20,372 nt of DNA. It comes from a virus. Position numbers and translations under genes: made by a program. The notes under the pieces are model-generated. The model saw only the letters and a list, made by a program, of their open reading frames with translations. It was not told the origin of the DNA and made no database searches. The DNA is taken from the IMG/VR virus record IMGVR_UViG_3300027714_000173, positions 1 to 20,372 of that record; one strand, written 5' to 3'. Positions 12,648 through 20,363 of the stretch are shown piece after piece. Position 1 is the first letter of the stretch, and each line of letters starts with the position of its first letter.

Positions 12648-13259
12648 ATGAAACTAAAGCTAGAAGTACCTACAACTTTACACGACATAACCTTAGACCA
12701 ATATAGTAGATTTGTAAAAGCGTTTGACAACGAAGACGACGCAAGCGAACAATACGCAGGACTAAAAATGCTAGAGATATTTTGCGGTGTAAAAACAGCA
12801 GAGGCTTTAACTATTAAAATTTCAGAGATACAAAAAATTACAACTGTATTAAATAAAGCACTAGACGAAAAGACACAATTAATAACTAGATTTTCTATGG
12901 GTGGTATAGAGTTCGGATTTGTACCGCAGCTAGACAATTTAACATTTGGCGAGTTCGTAGACATAGAAAACAACGTCGGCGATTGGGACACAATGTATAA
13001 GGCTATGGCAGTTTTATATAGACCCGTAGCTTTAAAAGCTAAAGGTAAATATACCTTACAAGATTACACAGGAGACAACTACCACGAAGCAATGAAAGTT
13101 ATGCCCGCCTCTATAGTTCTAGGAGCGTTACAGTTTTTTTTTCTTTTAGAGGCAGACTTACTGAAAGTTACGCTAGCCTCTTCACTAGCAGCGGAGACGA
13201 AAACACAACAGGACGAGCGGCCAATTTCAACAGTCAATGGGGGTGGTATCACAGTATAA
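12648..13259 (+). CDS. Tail assembly chaperone, short (G-like) product
   Basis: A 203-residue protein when read without frameshift. The N-terminus (LEVPTTLHDITLDQYSRFVK), GGIEFGFVPQLDNLTFGEFVDIE (in the middle) and MAVLYRPVALKAKG are typical of chaperone-like genes in the tail module of Bacteroidota phages as I recall them. Such proteins coat the tape measure before tail polymerisation. The last 39 residues after the T-run at 13134-13142 are of low complexity (LAAETKTQQDERPISTVNGG). An overlapping frame continues to 13399 and gives a longer product by -1 frameshift, as in lambda G/GT. Confidence 0.7.
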   Translation: MKLKLEVPTTLHDITLDQYSRFVKAFDNEDDASEQYAGLKMLEIFCGVKTAEALTIKISEIQKITTVLNKALDEKTQLITRFSMGGIEFGFVPQLDNLTFGEFVDIENNVGDWDTMYKAMAVLYRPVALKAKGKYTLQDYTGDNYHEAMKVMPASIVLGALQFFFLLEADLLKVTLASSLAAETKTQQDERPISTVNGGGITV

Positions 13260-13399
13260 TTAAATTAGCTAACCAAGATTTTCTACAGCTAGACGTAGTT
13301 ACTGAAAAGAATATACATAATTGTTTAACGTATCTAACATACACGAAGCAGCAGGACGAAATACAAAGCATAAACTTAAAAAGTAAATTTAAAAAATAA
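12648..13399 (+). CDS. Tail assembly chaperone, long (GT-like) frameshift product
   Basis: The -1 frame relative to the 12648 gene is open from 13049 to the TAA at 13397-13399 and has no usable start codon where it becomes protein-like. It encodes QWGWYHSIIKLANQDF and LQLDVVTEKNIHNCLTYLTY near its end, a conserved-looking C-terminal domain. Its stop overlaps the next ATG (TAATG), the coupling used throughout this genome. With a slip at 13136-13142 the fused protein is about 250 residues (165 + 85). In lambda and many siphophages the longer chaperone bridges the tape measure and the tail tube protein. The slip site is inferred; the open frame is seen. Confidence 0.75.
13136..13142 (+). other. 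Candidate -1 slippery heptamer (T TTT TTT)
   Basis: A run of nine T (13134-13142) reads TTT TTT TTT in frame and contains the canonical X XXY YYZ heptamer. It is the only such site I found between 13049 and the zero-frame stop at 13257-13259. Slipping back one base joins the two open frames. Confidence 0.65.
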
Positions 13400-13866
13400 T
13401 GGCAAATACAGGAGCAAGGGCATATTACACAATTTTAGAAATATTAAAAAACTCTTTACTAAAAAATGTAAATGTAAATACCGTTACGACGGGCGACATA
13501 AGCGACGTAGACCTAAGCAAGCAAACCATATATCCACTATCTCATTTAATTATAAACAGCGCAACTAACAGCGACCAAGTAATGACATTTAACGTAACGG
13601 TTATATGTATGGATAAAGTAAACCAATTAAAGACAGAGCAGATAAACCCGTTTAATAACGCAGCAGAGCAAACCGTTTTAAATACACAGCTAGCAGTTAG
13701 CAATAAATTATATAAAGAACTACGTAGCGGGCAATTAAGATTAGACGGTTTTCAAGTAGACGACGACGCCGCTATAGAGTTTTTCTTTGACAGGTTCGAG
13801 AATGTACTAGCAGGTGTAGCAATGACTGTAAACGTACAAATTAACAATGACCTAAATATATGTTAA
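13399..13866 (+). CDS. Conserved phage tail/neck-type protein
   Basis: A 155-residue protein of a pattern common in Bacteroidota phage structural modules: GARAYYTILEILKNSL, then NTVTTGDISDVDLSKQTIYP, LNTQLAVSNKLYKELRSGQL and a C-terminal RFENVLAGVAMTVNVQI strand region ending in NDLNIC. The alpha/beta layout would suit a tail terminator or head-tail completion protein, but I cannot prove it. It begins at the TAATG end of the chaperone frameshift frame and overlaps the next gene by 7 bases. Confidence 0.6.
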   Translation: MANTGARAYYTILEILKNSLLKNVNVNTVTTGDISDVDLSKQTIYPLSHLIINSATNSDQVMTFNVTVICMDKVNQLKTEQINPFNNAAEQTVLNTQLAVSNKLYKELRSGQLRLDGFQVDDDAAIEFFFDRFENVLAGVAMTVNVQINNDLNIC

Positions 13867-14429
13867 AGAGAGTAGTCGCAGAACTAGAGGCGTACGGTTT
13901 AAATGTAGTAAGCGCAGCAAGAGCAAACCTTAAAAAAAAGAAAAGCAACAGTAGCGGAACTTTAACAAACAGTATAACTTATAAGATAGAGAATAAAACA
14001 GGAGACAACCCAAGTATAGATTTTTACGCAGAAGAGTATGCTAAGTTTGTAGATAAAGGAGTGCAAGGTTTCAACCCCGCATTAATGCCTAACGGTTCGT
14101 TAAACAGATACAACAAAGCACCTAGCAGCCCGTATAAGTTTGGTAGCGGAAATTTTAGAGGCGGTAGTAGTTTACGAGGAGCTATTGATAGGTGGGTAAT
14201 ACAAAAAGGAATACCAAACGTAAGAGACGCAAAGGGTAGATTTATAAAACGTAAAACTATGGTTTATTTAATCACTAGAAGTATTTGGAATACAGGACTA
14301 CGTGCTACTAATTTCTTTACGGATGCACAGACAAAAGCAGATAAAAGCATAAGCACGAAGTTAGCAAAGGCAGCAGCTAGTGATATAGAATTACGATTTA
14401 GCGATAGTATAAAAAAGAAAATTAAATAA
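13860..14429 (+). CDS. Head-tail connector or neck protein, HK97 gp10-like
   Basis: A 189-residue basic protein. It has an N-terminal helix (MLKRVVAELEAYGLNVVSAA) followed by NSSGTLTNSITYKI, a strand region and YAKFVDKGVQGFNP, the FVDKGV/FVEFGT-type motif seen in HK97 gp10-like minor tail/neck proteins. Residues 95-189 are basic, with FGSGNFRGGSS and further helices. It would join head to tail or stabilise the tail end. The family link rests on this motif and position only. Confidence 0.55.
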   Translation: MLKRVVAELEAYGLNVVSAARANLKKKKSNSSGTLTNSITYKIENKTGDNPSIDFYAEEYAKFVDKGVQGFNPALMPNGSLNRYNKAPSSPYKFGSGNFRGGSSLRGAIDRWVIQKGIPNVRDAKGRFIKRKTMVYLITRSIWNTGLRATNFFTDAQTKADKSISTKLAKAAASDIELRFSDSIKKKIK

Positions 14430-15388
14430 TGGCAGATAAGAGATTTTTACGTAGTAGCATTACAATAGGCTATCAACACAACTCGGTATTACCTACAGCT
14501 AGCGCAGGTTTAGTAGTAGAGGTAGATTTAACCGGACAAGGGGGGCTAACGACAATCTATACTTTTAACAAAAACATTACACCACTACCAACAAACACGG
14601 CAGCATATTTTGAGACGTCAGAGGTTTTAAGAGATTATTTAACTATAGCTTTTAACGGAACAGCTACGAGTCAATCGTTACAAACTAGATTAACTTTTAG
14701 AATGTACGACCAATATAATTCTTTAGGTAATACGGTAGAGACTATACAATATGATTTTAGAGGGGTAGACGGTTATTCTTATTATGCGCAAGGGGCAAAC
14801 GTTATAGTTACGGGTACGCCGTCGGCTATATCTAATAGAGAAATATTTTTACCACAAAACACGACCGGTAAAATACCTACGTTTAGTACTACAGGATTTA
14901 CCTATAATAATATTACAGCGACGCAGCAAACTAAAACCATAGGCACAGACGTATATAAAATTAATAGAATATGCGAGCCTAAATTTACACCGTATAAAAT
15001 AACCTTTGTAAATAAGTTCGGAGCTTTGCAGGAGTTATGGCTAGGTTTATTAAGACGAGACAAAGTAGCTGTAAAAAGCGAAACCTTTAAAAGAAATATT
15101 ATAACGCCTACAGGTGGTTACGATATTAACCAACACAACCAAGCTACATTTAATGTAACAGGAAACGATAGCATAACTTTAAATACTACTTTTTTACCCG
15201 AAGAGTATAACGAGGTTTTAGAGCAATTACTTTTAAGCGAGCAAGTTTGGATATTAGAAAATGGTTTGTCTTTACCTATAGTATTAACTACAAAATCTTT
15301 AGATAAAAAGACACAATCAAATGACAATTTAATACAATATACTTTAGAATTTAAATATGCTAATAATAAAATAAACGCTATTAGGTAA
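14429..15388 (+). CDS. Tail structural protein, distal-tail/baseplate type
   Basis: A 319-residue beta-rich protein without catalytic motifs. The N-terminal half has many Thr/Asn-rich strands. The C-terminal part contains YKITFVNKFGALQELWLGLL, SETFKRNIITP and FNVTGNDSITLNTTFLPEEY, ending in QYTLEFKYANNKINAIR. This looks like a two-domain distal tail protein, but no known Dit signature is certain. It is coupled by TAATG to both neighbours, so it is made in step with the 832-aa protein that follows. Confidence 0.55.
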   Translation: MADKRFLRSSITIGYQHNSVLPTASAGLVVEVDLTGQGGLTTIYTFNKNITPLPTNTAAYFETSEVLRDYLTIAFNGTATSQSLQTRLTFRMYDQYNSLGNTVETIQYDFRGVDGYSYYAQGANVIVTGTPSAISNREIFLPQNTTGKIPTFSTTGFTYNNITATQQTKTIGTDVYKINRICEPKFTPYKITFVNKFGALQELWLGLLRRDKVAVKSETFKRNIITPTGGYDINQHNQATFNVTGNDSITLNTTFLPEEYNEVLEQLLLSEQVWILENGLSLPIVLTTKSLDKKTQSNDNLIQYTLEFKYANNKINAIR

Positions 15389-17886
15389 TGAGAGAACTAC
15401 AGCTATTTATAGAGGGCGAGCGCATAGACTTGTTTAACGACGAGACAGTATCTTTAACACAGACTATACAAAATGCTAAAGACATAGGCTCGATATTTAC
15501 AGATTTTTCTAAGTCGTTTTCTCTACCGGCAAGTTCTGCAAACAATAAGTTATTTAAACATTATTACGATTTTAATATTATAGGTGGTTTTAACGCTAAC
15601 GATAGGAAAAGCGCCGAAATACTTTTAAATTCATTTGTATTTAGAAAAGGCTTTATAGCTTTAGACGGTGTTTCTTTAAAAGATAATAGACCGCACACTT
15701 ATAGAGTTACATTTTTTGGCGAGACAGTTACTTTAAAAAATAGATTAAAAGAAGTTACGTTACAAAATATATATGAGTCTTCTACGAGTTTTGATACTGA
15801 CTATAACATTTCTACTGTAAAGACAGGCCTAACGTCAAGCCTTGCAAATGGTAATATAATATACCCTTTAATTTCACATACCGAAAGATTTTATTATGAC
15901 CCTACTACTAGCGGACAGAATACTAGAAATTTACATTATCAACAAGCAGGAACAGGTGCTAATAACAAAGGGGTAGATTTTACAGATTTAAAACCCGCAA
16001 TTAAATTATCTACTATAATAGACCAAATAGAAAACTATACCGCACAAAGATTTAACGGTAACGGATTGGTTTTTGAAAGAACAGGTAAAAGTTTTTTTAA
16101 TATTGATAGTACAAGCGCTGACTATAACGAGATTTACGATAATATGTTTCTTTGGTTGGCAAGAGAAAAAGGTTTAGCAGGTAAAGATTATACCGGCGAG
16201 CAAATTTATAGAATAGTAATAAACTCTATGACAGCACCGGCGTCTCAAAATTGGAGTCCATTCTGTTATACATACGACGACCAAAACGCAGGTGGGCAAA
16301 CAGGTGGCGGTAGTTGTTCTAATAGTGAAATAGTAAATGGTATTTGGACTATAAAACCTTTTAATGGCTATGTACGCGCTGCGTCTTTTGGTTATAATTT
16401 TAGGGTAACAGGTTCGGGTGGTGGTACTTTTAGTATTATCGTAGAAGATGTTACAGGACAAACAACAGTAATAAATTCAGCAGCAGATTTAGCAGCCGAC
16501 GGAACTACTGCGCATTTTATAAATGGTAATAATTTAGGTACAAATAATCAATTTAGTAGTTTTAGATTTGTAGTAGAGGCAACGTCGCCAAGTTTTTCGT
16601 TTACCTGTAGAATACAATTAAATTTAGACGAAACAATACCCGACCCGTTTTTTGAGCAAGACCCCGAATATAATAATTTTACGTCTTATATAACAACAGT
16701 AGCGCCGACACAAGTTTTAGACAGAATAATAGTAAGCGACCAACTACCCAAGATGCTAGTTTTACCATACCTTACAAGTCTATTTAAAATGTTTAATTTA
16801 ACCGCTTTTGTACAAGAGGACGGCAAAATAATGGTACAAACTTTAGACAGTTATTACGCAGGTGGTAATACAATCGACATATCCGAGTTCGTAGACACTA
16901 CAGCAGGTAGCGTAGATTTTGCACCGCCTTACCAAGAAATCGCATTTAGAAACCAAGTACCAAAAACATTTTTTGCAATTAATTTTTTAGAATTAAACAA
17001 TAGTACATTTGGTAATTTAGAAAATAGTACAAGTTCCGGTAACGTACAATCTACAGATAGGGGGTCTAAGTATGTAGTAGAAACAGGTTTTGAAAAGATA
17101 CTATATGAGCGTTTACCAAATACACCTATTCAGTGGGGTTGGAGTGTAGACGTAAACCAATTACCTATATTAACTGCGCCAATGATTTTTGTAAACCAAA
17201 GTACAAGCGCAACCTCTACCCCTATATCTTTTATAGACGGAATTTCTGACGGTACAGCAAGTCAAGTTACAACCTATAACAGGCCGTCAAATAGTATGAA
17301 TATAGAAACTATAAATTTTGGCGCAGAGATTGACGAATTTACAGGGTTGGTAAAAACCGAGAGTTTATTTGCTGAAAACTATCTTAATTATATTAGTGGA
17401 ATTTTTAACTATAACAGAAGATTAACTAAAGTAAAAGCATATCTACCCTTAAAAGTACTTATAAACTATTCTTTAGCAGATTTATTTGTAATTAATGGAA
17501 ACCAATTTAATATAAATAGTGTAAATACAAATTTACAAACAGGCGAAAGTAAACTAGAGTTATATAATTTAGTAGACTTAGCAGGTTCCGGCGGTGGTTC
17601 TACGCCACCTCTAACCGGTGTTGTAATATCTGTAAATGATTTAGGTACAAATTCAGTAGAAATTGACGTTGCCGATTATACAGGTGGCAATCAAATTGAT
17701 ATTTACGAGCCAAAAGTAAACGGCGTTAATAACCAAGATGATTTTAGCAAAACGGTTCAGTTTATGAGATACACATACAATAATTTAAATGCAAACACAA
17801 CCTATACGTTACAAATTATAGCAGTAACTAGTCAAGGCGTAAATGTAGCAGACTCAAACATTTTAACCGTTGTAACAAGTAATTAA
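15388..17886 (+). CDS. Large tail tip/baseplate protein with C-terminal fibronectin-III-like domain
   Basis: An 832-residue protein. The N-terminus (VSLTQTIQNAKDIGSIFTDF, KSFSLPASSANNKLFKHYYD) starts a conserved module to about residue 130. The middle is beta-rich and contains a Gly/Ser-rich region near 300-315 (GGQTGGGSCS). A linker GGGSTPPLTG precedes a domain of about 90 residues with the fibronectin-III pattern (VEIDVADYTGG, YTYNNLNANTTYTLQIIA). Such domains often mediate surface binding. The protein is likely the tail hub/tip or receptor-binding component. No enzyme motif is seen. It lies upstream of the tape measure gene, the opposite of the usual order. Confidence 0.65.
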   Translation: MRELQLFIEGERIDLFNDETVSLTQTIQNAKDIGSIFTDFSKSFSLPASSANNKLFKHYYDFNIIGGFNANDRKSAEILLNSFVFRKGFIALDGVSLKDNRPHTYRVTFFGETVTLKNRLKEVTLQNIYESSTSFDTDYNISTVKTGLTSSLANGNIIYPLISHTERFYYDPTTSGQNTRNLHYQQAGTGANNKGVDFTDLKPAIKLSTIIDQIENYTAQRFNGNGLVFERTGKSFFNIDSTSADYNEIYDNMFLWLAREKGLAGKDYTGEQIYRIVINSMTAPASQNWSPFCYTYDDQNAGGQTGGGSCSNSEIVNGIWTIKPFNGYVRAASFGYNFRVTGSGGGTFSIIVEDVTGQTTVINSAADLAADGTTAHFINGNNLGTNNQFSSFRFVVEATSPSFSFTCRIQLNLDETIPDPFFEQDPEYNNFTSYITTVAPTQVLDRIIVSDQLPKMLVLPYLTSLFKMFNLTAFVQEDGKIMVQTLDSYYAGGNTIDISEFVDTTAGSVDFAPPYQEIAFRNQVPKTFFAINFLELNNSTFGNLENSTSSGNVQSTDRGSKYVVETGFEKILYERLPNTPIQWGWSVDVNQLPILTAPMIFVNQSTSATSTPISFIDGISDGTASQVTTYNRPSNSMNIETINFGAEIDEFTGLVKTESLFAENYLNYISGIFNYNRRLTKVKAYLPLKVLINYSLADLFVINGNQFNINSVNTNLQTGESKLELYNLVDLAGSGGGSTPPLTGVVISVNDLGTNSVEIDVADYTGGNQIDIYEPKVNGVNNQDDFSKTVQFMRYTYNNLNANTTYTLQIIAVTSQGVNVADSNILTVVTSN

Positions 17887-17911: not shown

Positions 17912-18052
17912 ATGTTAAACATAATTCTACAAATGCTAAAGGACGCAAACGGCGAAACCGAATTAATAAAAATAGCGCAAGGTAAAAACAAGTTACCCGA
18001 ATCTATTAAAGAGGGGTATAACCAACTTAAAACCGAAATAAAATGGCTATAG
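17912..18052 (+). CDS. Small helical protein upstream of the tape measure
   Basis: A 46-residue ORF after the A-rich leader CAATAAAAAACACAAAAT. It overlaps the tape measure start by 10 bases. Its sequence (MLKDANGETELIKIAQGK, then LPESIKEGYNQLKTEIKW) is helical and charged. The function is unknown; the coupling to the tape measure gene suggests a tail-assembly role. Confidence 0.5.
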   Translation: MLNIILQMLKDANGETELIKIAQGKNKLPESIKEGYNQLKTEIKWL

Positions 18053-19719
18053 AAAAAATTGGTATTGAGGTAGAAGTAAAAAGTAAAAAGGCCGAAAGTA
18101 GTTTAGACCAACTACAGAAAAAACTAGAGGGCGTATCAAAAGCAGGTAGAGACAATAGAGAGGGTTTTAAAGTATTAGACCAAGTTACAGACGGGTACGC
18201 TACCAAAATTAAAGGTTTAGCGGGTTCTGTAGGTGGTGCTATAAAAGGAGTTAAAGGTTTTGCTACAGGTTTAAAAGGTTTACGAGGTGCTTTAATATCT
18301 ACGGGTATCGGTGCGCTAGTAGTAGCTCTAGGTTTAATCGTGGCATATTGGGACGACATTATAGGTTTAGTTAGTGGTGTAAATAAAGAGACTACAGACT
18401 TACTAGCAACACAACAAAAAAGTGTAGCAGCTAGCGAGGCAGCAAATAAAGCAATTAGCGAGACGTCAAATACTTTAAAACTTTCGGGTAAAAGTGAAAG
18501 AGATATTTTAGACGCTAAAAAGCTACAGACTATAGAAACTATAAAGGCTTTAGAGGCACAACTTATAACGCAAGAGGCTATAAAAAAATCACAAACAGAA
18601 GCAGCAGAGCGAAACAAATCTATACTACAGGGTATTATACGTTTAATTACTTTACCTATTACTTTAATTCTAGGAACTATAGACGGAATAAGCGCAACAC
18701 TAGCAGCTCTAGGAGTTATAGAAGACGGCACAAATTTAGAAGAGAGTTTTAGCGGTGGTATAGCTAATTTAGTTTTTGACCCTAAAGACGTAGCCAAAAA
18801 AGGCGAGGAGACATTAAAAGAAACTAGAAACCAATTAACTAAACTAAAAAATACTAGAGACGGTTTTACATTACAGCAAAAGGCGCAAGACCAAAAAGCA
18901 GCAGACGAGAAAACGGCTAAAAACGAAAAAGAGGTAGAGGCTTTAAGGCTTAAATTAGAGAAAGAGGCAGAGGTTATAAGGGAAGCAAAAGAAAAGGCAG
19001 ACCAACTAGAAGCGGACGAAAAGGCTAAAGCACTAGAAGAGATAGCTAGACTAGAAGAGGAGTTCGCACTTAACCAACTTACAAAAGAAGAGCAGGAAAG
19101 AGTAAAAGTAATAGCTAAGTATGCGTTTGCTATAACGCAAGCTAAAAAGTTTGGCGAAGACACGATAATACTAGAAGCTGCAAAAGCTAAAGCATTAAAA
19201 GCAATAGCCGACAAATCAAATGCAGCAGAAATAGCTAGAGACGAACTATTAAAAAAACAAAAATTATCCTCTATAAGCGATACATTCGGACAGATAGCAG
19301 GAATACTAGGTAAAAATAGTGCAGCAGGAAAGGCAGCGGCTATAGCACAGGCAACTATAAACACCTACCAAGGTATTAGTGAGGTATGGGGTAATAAGTC
19401 TACGCTACCCGCACCATTTGACGTAATACAAAAAGGTGTAGCTAGTATAGCTGTATTAGCAGCAGGCCTAAAAACTGTAAAATCTATAAAATCTGTAAAG
19501 AAACCCGCAGGAGTAAAAGGCGGTGGCGATAGTGGCGGGGGTAGTGCGCCCGCATTTCAACCGCCCGCATTTAATATTGTAGGTAGTTCGGGTACAAATC
19601 AATTAGCCGACGTAATAGCAGACCAAACTAGCCAACCCGTGCGCTCGTATGTAGTGGCAGGAGACGTTTCTACAGCGCAGCAATTAGAACGTAATACAAT
19701 AAGTGCAGCAAGTATATAA
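18043..19719 (+). CDS. Tape measure protein
   Basis: A 558-residue protein that sets tail length and is threaded through the tail tube. It starts with a helical segment (VKSKKAESSLDQLQKKLEGV), then a Gly-rich region (55-82) and a hydrophobic segment at about 83-103. A second hydrophobic region lies near 205-225. A long charged helical/coiled-coil region spans about 275-400, and alanine-rich helices with AGKAAAIAQATINTYQGISE follow near 430-450. The tail ends in a Gly-rich linker and PVRSYVVAGDVSTAQQLERN. This layout is classical. On the known relation of about 1.5 angstrom per residue the tail would be roughly 80 nm, short for a siphophage. Confidence 0.88.
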   Translation: MAIEKIGIEVEVKSKKAESSLDQLQKKLEGVSKAGRDNREGFKVLDQVTDGYATKIKGLAGSVGGAIKGVKGFATGLKGLRGALISTGIGALVVALGLIVAYWDDIIGLVSGVNKETTDLLATQQKSVAASEAANKAISETSNTLKLSGKSERDILDAKKLQTIETIKALEAQLITQEAIKKSQTEAAERNKSILQGIIRLITLPITLILGTIDGISATLAALGVIEDGTNLEESFSGGIANLVFDPKDVAKKGEETLKETRNQLTKLKNTRDGFTLQQKAQDQKAADEKTAKNEKEVEALRLKLEKEAEVIREAKEKADQLEADEKAKALEEIARLEEEFALNQLTKEEQERVKVIAKYAFAITQAKKFGEDTIILEAAKAKALKAIADKSNAAEIARDELLKKQKLSSISDTFGQIAGILGKNSAAGKAAAIAQATINTYQGISEVWGNKSTLPAPFDVIQKGVASIAVLAAGLKTVKSIKSVKKPAGVKGGGDSGGGSAPAFQPPAFNIVGSSGTNQLADVIADQTSQPVRSYVVAGDVSTAQQLERNTISAASI

Positions 19720-19751: not shown

Positions 19752-20363
19752 ATGAGAATAGTAGAATTAATAATAGACGAAACGGACGAGTATTCGGGGG
19801 TAGACGCTATAAGTTTAGTAGAGTCGCCCGCAATTAGCGAAAATTGGGTAGCACTTAAAAACGAAAAAGAATATAAGTTTAAAGCAATAGACGAAGATAA
19901 AAAGATTTTAATAGGCGCACTTTTAGTACCTAATAGAATGATTTATAGACGAGACGGTAAAGACGAGTATTACATACACTTTACAAAGTCTACAGTAAAA
20001 CAAGCTAGCGAACTATATTTAAAAAACGGACACGCAAATAATGCGACATACGAGCATATACAAGAGGTGCAAAATGTTAGCTTAGTAGAATCGTGGATAG
20101 TCGAAGACAAAATAAATGACAAGAGCGCATTATATAATTTAGACCTACCTATTGGTACGTGGGTCGGGGCTGTAAAAGTAGAAAACGAGGAGCTTTGGAA
20201 AATGGCTAAAGTAGACGGGTCAATAAAAGGGTTTTCGATAGAGGGATTTTTTGAAGAAAAGGCACTAGCAAAAGCTAAAGACGCTAACCTAAATAAAGAA
20301 ATAAACGAAAGTTTAGGATTATTATTAAACAGACTTAAAAAAATAGAAAATGGCAAACTATAG
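19752..20363 (+). CDS. XkdF-like prohead protease
   Basis: A 203-residue protein of the XkdF-like putative phage serine protease type, which processes scaffold or capsid precursors during head assembly. The recognisable order is VDAISLVESPAISENW at the N-terminus, KILIGALLVPNRMIYR, YYIHFTKSTVKQAS, then QNVSLVESWIVEDKINDKS, LPIGTWVGAVKV and KGFSIEGFF. The first His after the VP..MIYR stretch (IHF) and the Ser in SLVESW are candidates for catalysis, without proof. Its place after the tail genes rather than after the terminase is unusual. Confidence 0.8.
   Translation: MRIVELIIDETDEYSGVDAISLVESPAISENWVALKNEKEYKFKAIDEDKKILIGALLVPNRMIYRRDGKDEYYIHFTKSTVKQASELYLKNGHANNATYEHIQEVQNVSLVESWIVEDKINDKSALYNLDLPIGTWVGAVKVENEELWKMAKVDGSIKGFSIEGFFEEKALAKAKDANLNKEINESLGLLLNRLKKIENGKL

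Follow-up and report, generated by a model that had tools for sequence, protein, structure and literature searches.

The gene and its two frames

The window, which is the whole stretch of 20,372 nucleotides analysed here, contains a gene with two overlapping open frames (Table 1). The zero frame overlaps in part with a -1 frame that stays open between 13049 and 13399 and has no ATG, GTG or TTG. Joining the two frames gives a product of 250 amino acids. The sole run of nine T in the window lies inside the overlap of the frames. These features had been described in an earlier note made from the letters of the window, and that description was accurate: the zero frame ends at 13259, the -1 frame has the extent given and lacks a start codon, it ends in TAATG, and a T TTT TTT heptamer that could join both frames lies within the nine-T run at the position reported.

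The AlphaFold model of the zero-frame product has a pLDDT of 91, and that of the T-like domain is only moderate (pLDDT 78). The two halves match the PHROG families phrog_32199 and phrog_38404, both of unknown function. An open -1 frame across the 39-codon overlap was not significant in itself (P = 0.09 from synonymous shuffles of the zero frame, window only). Thus, the argument must be carried by the relatives of this gene.

Table 1. Coordinates of the candidate frameshifted gene and associated features in the window.
Feature	Position	Strand	Remarks
Zero-frame product, G-like	12648-13259	+	ATG start at 12648; 203 aa; homologues found; phrog_32199
-1 frame, T-like domain	open 13049-13399; translated part would be 13142-13399	+	conserved FF-x-FR ... 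WGWY; relatives and alignment of 55
T9 tract, putative slip site	13134-13142	+	339 of 340 distinct homologues have 9 or 10 T and the other has 12
In-phase T TTT TTT heptamer within the tract	13136-13142	+	displaced one codon compared with most relatives
TAG in +1 frame	13147-13149	+	would terminate the product of a one-T deletion
QWGWYH motif of T-like domain	13235-13252	+	conserved in alignment
TAATG	13397-13401	+	stop TAA of the fused frame overlaps the ATG of the following tail gene
Tape measure protein, presumed partner	18043-19719	+	phrog_24676, tail length tape measure protein, E 2.5e-16

Homologues and the frame of the downstream domain

Loci with the upstream domain were collected from IMG/VR scans, GTDB (Bacteroidota) genomes and phage records including the Nonlabens phages P12024L and P12024S, and 425 were obtained. 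Of these, 417 extend far enough to include the downstream domain, and each of them has it in the -1 frame; the remaining eight loci, which lack it, end at a contig edge. No fused downstream domain and no downstream domain in the +1 frame was found in the 417 loci. One query of one scan relied on a peptide pattern crossing the tract, which is a source of search bias; a further scan, with a pattern located well away from the tract, agreed with it. Two divergent queries of viral contigs identified nothing new.

A gene of the lambda G/GT type consists of a zero-frame protein and a C-terminal extension in another frame, reached through a conserved slip site. This arrangement was found in 417 of 417 loci, with the tract present in 340 of 340 distinct sequences. 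Because the downstream domain is in the -1 frame in every locus and fused in none, the reading of this gene as a frameshifted, two-product, G/GT-like gene is well supported by comparison of sequences. The domain in the -1 frame, which had looked conserved from the window alone, recurs in every locus covering the region, and the earlier proposal that the two frames form one conserved two-domain protein gains strong support from these loci and from the recurrent tract.

Named relatives include gp40/gp41 of P12024L and gp38/gp39 of P12024S, which are direct homologues and have the T9 tract and the -1 domain alike. In P12024L, the frameshifted gene is located at NC_018272.1 23946-24640 (locus L082 9001-9695). 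However, these records list the halves as two separate hypothetical proteins, and their identity to the window protein is about 32%. A T9 homologue also occurs in an 871-kb contig of the Galbibacter pacificus isolate CAA-3 (locus L086 6001-6731), presumably in a prophage. In one clade (loci L116 and L120-L148) the zero frame continues for about 85 codons beyond the tract, so that almost all of the T-like domain is encoded in both frames; in the other sequences the zero frame stops sooner.

Tract length and codon phase

Among the 340 distinct sequences the tract was T9 in 308, T10 in 31 and T12 in one, and no tract had eight or fewer T. The T12 outlier (locus L394) has one extra Phe codon. The scan with the pattern far from the tract gave 64 T9, nine T10 and one T12 in 74 distinct sequences, which behaved alike. 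Outside this site, approximately 1.27 Mb of related sequence contains no more than 44 T9 or T10 runs.

The tract occurs in all three codon phases. T9 and T10 between them show six combinations of length and phase, and on a tree of 340 tips, with a total of about 58 substitutions per site, parsimony requires 13 changes of configuration. In the usual layout, a pair of Phe codons supplies six T, the codon in front of the pair the first two and the next codon the last one. When the codon before the pair is not xTT, the following codon begins with TT: this was the case in all four such clusters compared with 4 of 85 others at 70% identity (Fisher P 3e-5), and in 3 of 3 compared with 1 of 24 at 50% identity (P 0.001). 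Thus, a T lost at one end is matched by a gain at the other, and the total stays at nine or more. In most relatives the first T of the heptamer is supplied by the codon before the two Phe codons. In the window this T has been lost (the codon is CAG) and a third Phe codon is present instead, so the run is still nine T long but the heptamer lies one codon away from its usual place. The tract length is clamped across the family.

Parts of T9 are explained by the amino acids encoded, namely a hydrophobic codon before the Phe pair and an aromatic codon after it. In addition, a stop in the +1 frame lies 6 nt after the tract in 235 of 268 sequences and 4 nt after it in 23 of 268. This TAG may simply follow from the overlap of two protein sequences.

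Slippage by the polymerase or by the ribosome

As in lambda G/GT, a single start would give a common short form (the zero-frame product of 203 amino acids) and a rarer form of 250 amino acids that includes the T-like domain. If the slip is transcriptional, a host-type RNA polymerase would slip on T9 and add one U to a fraction of the mRNAs, and ordinary translation of these would run into the T-like domain. Messages one U short would instead stop at the TAG within a few codons. The insertion of one U and a -1 slip of the ribosome on the heptamer give an identical protein. Therefore, mass spectrometry cannot separate the two mechanisms, nor would the dual reporter suggested in the earlier note do so by itself.

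Transcriptional slippage is expected to leave a conserved homopolymer of about 8-9 or more that is free of codon phase, and this is the pattern found here. In bacterial genomes, selection against slippage is usually seen at a length of nine A or nine T (PMC1088944), and the E. coli polymerase slips more on poly-T than on poly-A and makes insertions more than deletions (PMC6260861). A direction of shift that varies among orthologues is a supporting, though not required, sign of transcriptional slippage (PMC3711429); it was not seen, as the shift was -1 in 417 of 417 loci.

The E/E' tail chaperone gene of phage P2 was used as a control. Its T-tract frameshift is reported as translational, at the site TTTTTTG, in PMC3091744, which cites Christie et al. 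2002. The control set consisted of 18 P2-like E/E' sequences, from P2 down to about 32% identity. The run was T6 in 15 of these and T7 in one, always in one phase, and the other two had other heptamers. P2 E/E+E' (Peduoviridae) resembles the present family in its tail chaperone function, putative here, its T-tract slip site and the absence of a downstream hairpin. However, P2 has T6-T7 in a fixed phase, with other heptamers in some relatives, whereas the present family has T9-T10 in any phase. As far as these sequences indicate, a ribosomal T-tract site stays near its minimum length and keeps its phase, and the present family does the opposite. That only the heptamer and its phase should be constrained, as they are in P2, is a comparative criterion and not part of the formal definition of ribosomal frameshifting, and such a limited constraint was not found here. 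Since the tract is held at 9-10 T while the codon phase moves, unlike in P2, the comparison favours slippage by RNA polymerase.

The principal alternative is ribosomal -1 frameshifting at the in-phase heptamer of the window, as in lambda G/GT and P2 E/E', with the longer tract kept by the amino acids it encodes or by a greater efficiency of slipping. The earlier note had assumed a ribosomal slip of the lambda kind at this heptamer. An in-phase X XXY YYZ heptamer, which programmed -1 ribosomal frameshifting requires, is indeed present in the window and in every sequence, although this follows in any case from a tract of nine or more T, every one of which holds an in-phase T TTT TTT. Thus, a ribosomal slip is compatible with every sequence. 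The constant -1 direction is taken as a sign of ribosomal frameshifting by Antonov et al. (PMC3711429), a tail chaperone with a ribosomal T-tract shift is already known in P2 E/E' (PMC3091744), and the genomes are AT-rich, all of which speak for this alternative. However, a heptamer requires seven T, yet 340 of 340 sequences have at least nine, in varying phase; the P2-like sites remain at 6-7 T with their phase fixed; and the heptamer of the window has shifted by one codon with no change in tract length. The ribosomal part of the earlier proposal was therefore its weaker part.

Downstream RNA structure was not enriched over dinucleotide shuffles in 55 representatives (mean z +0.12, none of 55 below -2), a comparison that covers structures other than pseudoknots. 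A downstream stimulatory structure, which is not a universal criterion of ribosomal -1 frameshifting, was thus not found. The P2 site is also without one (PMC3091744), so its absence here is not diagnostic. Upstream, a hairpin with z below -2 was found in 5 of 55 representatives (mean -0.23).

When both mechanisms are weighed with the points against each included, the comparison of sequences favours programmed transcriptional slippage as the probable mechanism, and ribosomal slippage is a lesser possibility that deserves serious consideration. With somewhat less assurance, we lean toward the view that a whole family of Bacteroidota phage tail chaperones makes two products by RNA polymerase slippage on T9-T10.

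Comparison with known systems

Lambda gpG/gpGT shares several characteristics with the present gene: one start, a frequent short form and a rare -1-extended form, and a place among the tail genes, upstream of the one for the tape measure protein (PMC5009743 for lambda). It differs in that no sequence relation was found between the two, the short form is longer here (203 amino acids), and a T9-T10 tract takes the place of a short heptamer. In addition, the present gene and the tape measure gene have four genes between them.

Shigella mxiE and spa13, Thermus dnaX and some IS elements (T9 or A9-A10) likewise have a conserved homopolymer of 9-10 and a continuation in another frame (PMC1088944, PMC6260861, PMC5009743). 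These transcriptional slippage genes are cellular, plasmid or IS genes, unlike the phage gene described here. A phage tail chaperone that uses transcriptional slippage was not found in the open PMC literature, where reviews and frameshift surveys were found; subscription papers lie outside this scope.

Function and gene neighbourhood

Tail assembly chaperones are usually recognised as two-product genes with a -1 frameshift that lie in a tail module, upstream of the tape measure gene. In G/GT-type chaperones the short form binds the tape measure protein, the T domain binds the tail tube protein, and neither is found in the virion. The candidate frameshifted gene of the window lies upstream of the tape measure gene in the same direction, with four genes (13399-17886) between them, and the spacing in P12024L is comparable. 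The gene order is unusual for a siphophage in that a prohead protease gene of the XkdF type (19752-20363) follows the tape measure gene.

A tail assembly chaperone role is likely, mainly from the architecture of the locus, that is, its tail module position and two-product design. The chaperone label given earlier is plausible on this basis, but it is unproven, as no characterised chaperone was matched by sequence or by PDB fold. Searches of Pfam, NCBIfam, PDB sequences and PDB folds, with both domains used in the PDB searches, identified no characterised relatives. The sole named match was a weak predicted-fold match to BFVD A0A8S5V8Z8, which is named as a tail assembly chaperone (E 0.0085, TM approximately 0.37). 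Tail chaperone families often share no sequence, and a relation to a characterised one is not required (PMC3931495).

Alternatively, the gene could be frameshifted as described but serve another step of head, neck or tail assembly. The lack of a characterised chaperone match in these searches and the four genes before the tape measure gene would agree with such a role. However, the position and the two-product design are those usual for chaperones, and the BFVD fold match, though weak, points the same way, so this alternative is considered unlikely.

Flavobacterium phage 6H gp10, which also gave a weak predicted-fold match, was considered and set aside. It has a T6C run near its end, but a stop follows immediately in the -1 frame. 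Beyond gp10 (locus L346 9586-10927, minus strand) lies a stretch of about 300 nt that carries no annotation but contains an open frame; this open frame is possibly a differently expressed second domain or the result of a sequence error.

Sequence error or a separate downstream gene as improbable explanations

Two further explanations would remove the frameshift itself. First, the two frames could result from sequencing error or from variation of tract length at the DNA level (phase variation), with the real gene being fused. Long homopolymers are error-prone and mutable, but no fused consensus appears in 417 loci from many samples, and these loci include finished phage genomes and the Galbibacter pacificus isolate contig (coverage of 413 in its title). 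This explanation is very improbable.

Secondly, the downstream domain could be an independent gene whose own start is coupled to the stop of the upstream frame, as GenBank has it in splitting gp40/gp41 and gp38/gp39 with TAATG between them; this is the least probable of the explanations considered, given the lack of an ATG, GTG or TTG in the -1 frame of the window, the absence of an ATG from the 70 nt that follow the tract in 262 of 268 sequences, and the conservation of the -1 sequence directly after the tract. The earlier note had named homologues with an independently started downstream domain as evidence against a frameshift, and the relatives do not supply such evidence. In P12024L and P12024S, where the second half is annotated from the ATG in TAATG, the conserved -1 sequence FFLSFRERL begins before this codon and reaches back to the tract. 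Across the family, just 6 of 268 distinct sequences have an ATG in the first 70 nt 3' of the tract.

Significance for the phage family

Frameshifted tail chaperones are a textbook example of programmed ribosomal frameshifting. If the present family uses transcriptional slippage, it has reached the same outcome at another step of gene expression, as dnaX does in Thermus compared with E. coli. If the two frames are joined as proposed, the nameless families phrog_32199 and phrog_38404 would become halves of one protein. An annotation rule for these phages would then be to join the frames at the T9-T10 tract, which the records of P12024L and P12024S do not do. Lastly, if slippage is by the polymerase, the ratio of products used in tail assembly would be set by a property of the host RNA polymerase and not of the ribosome.
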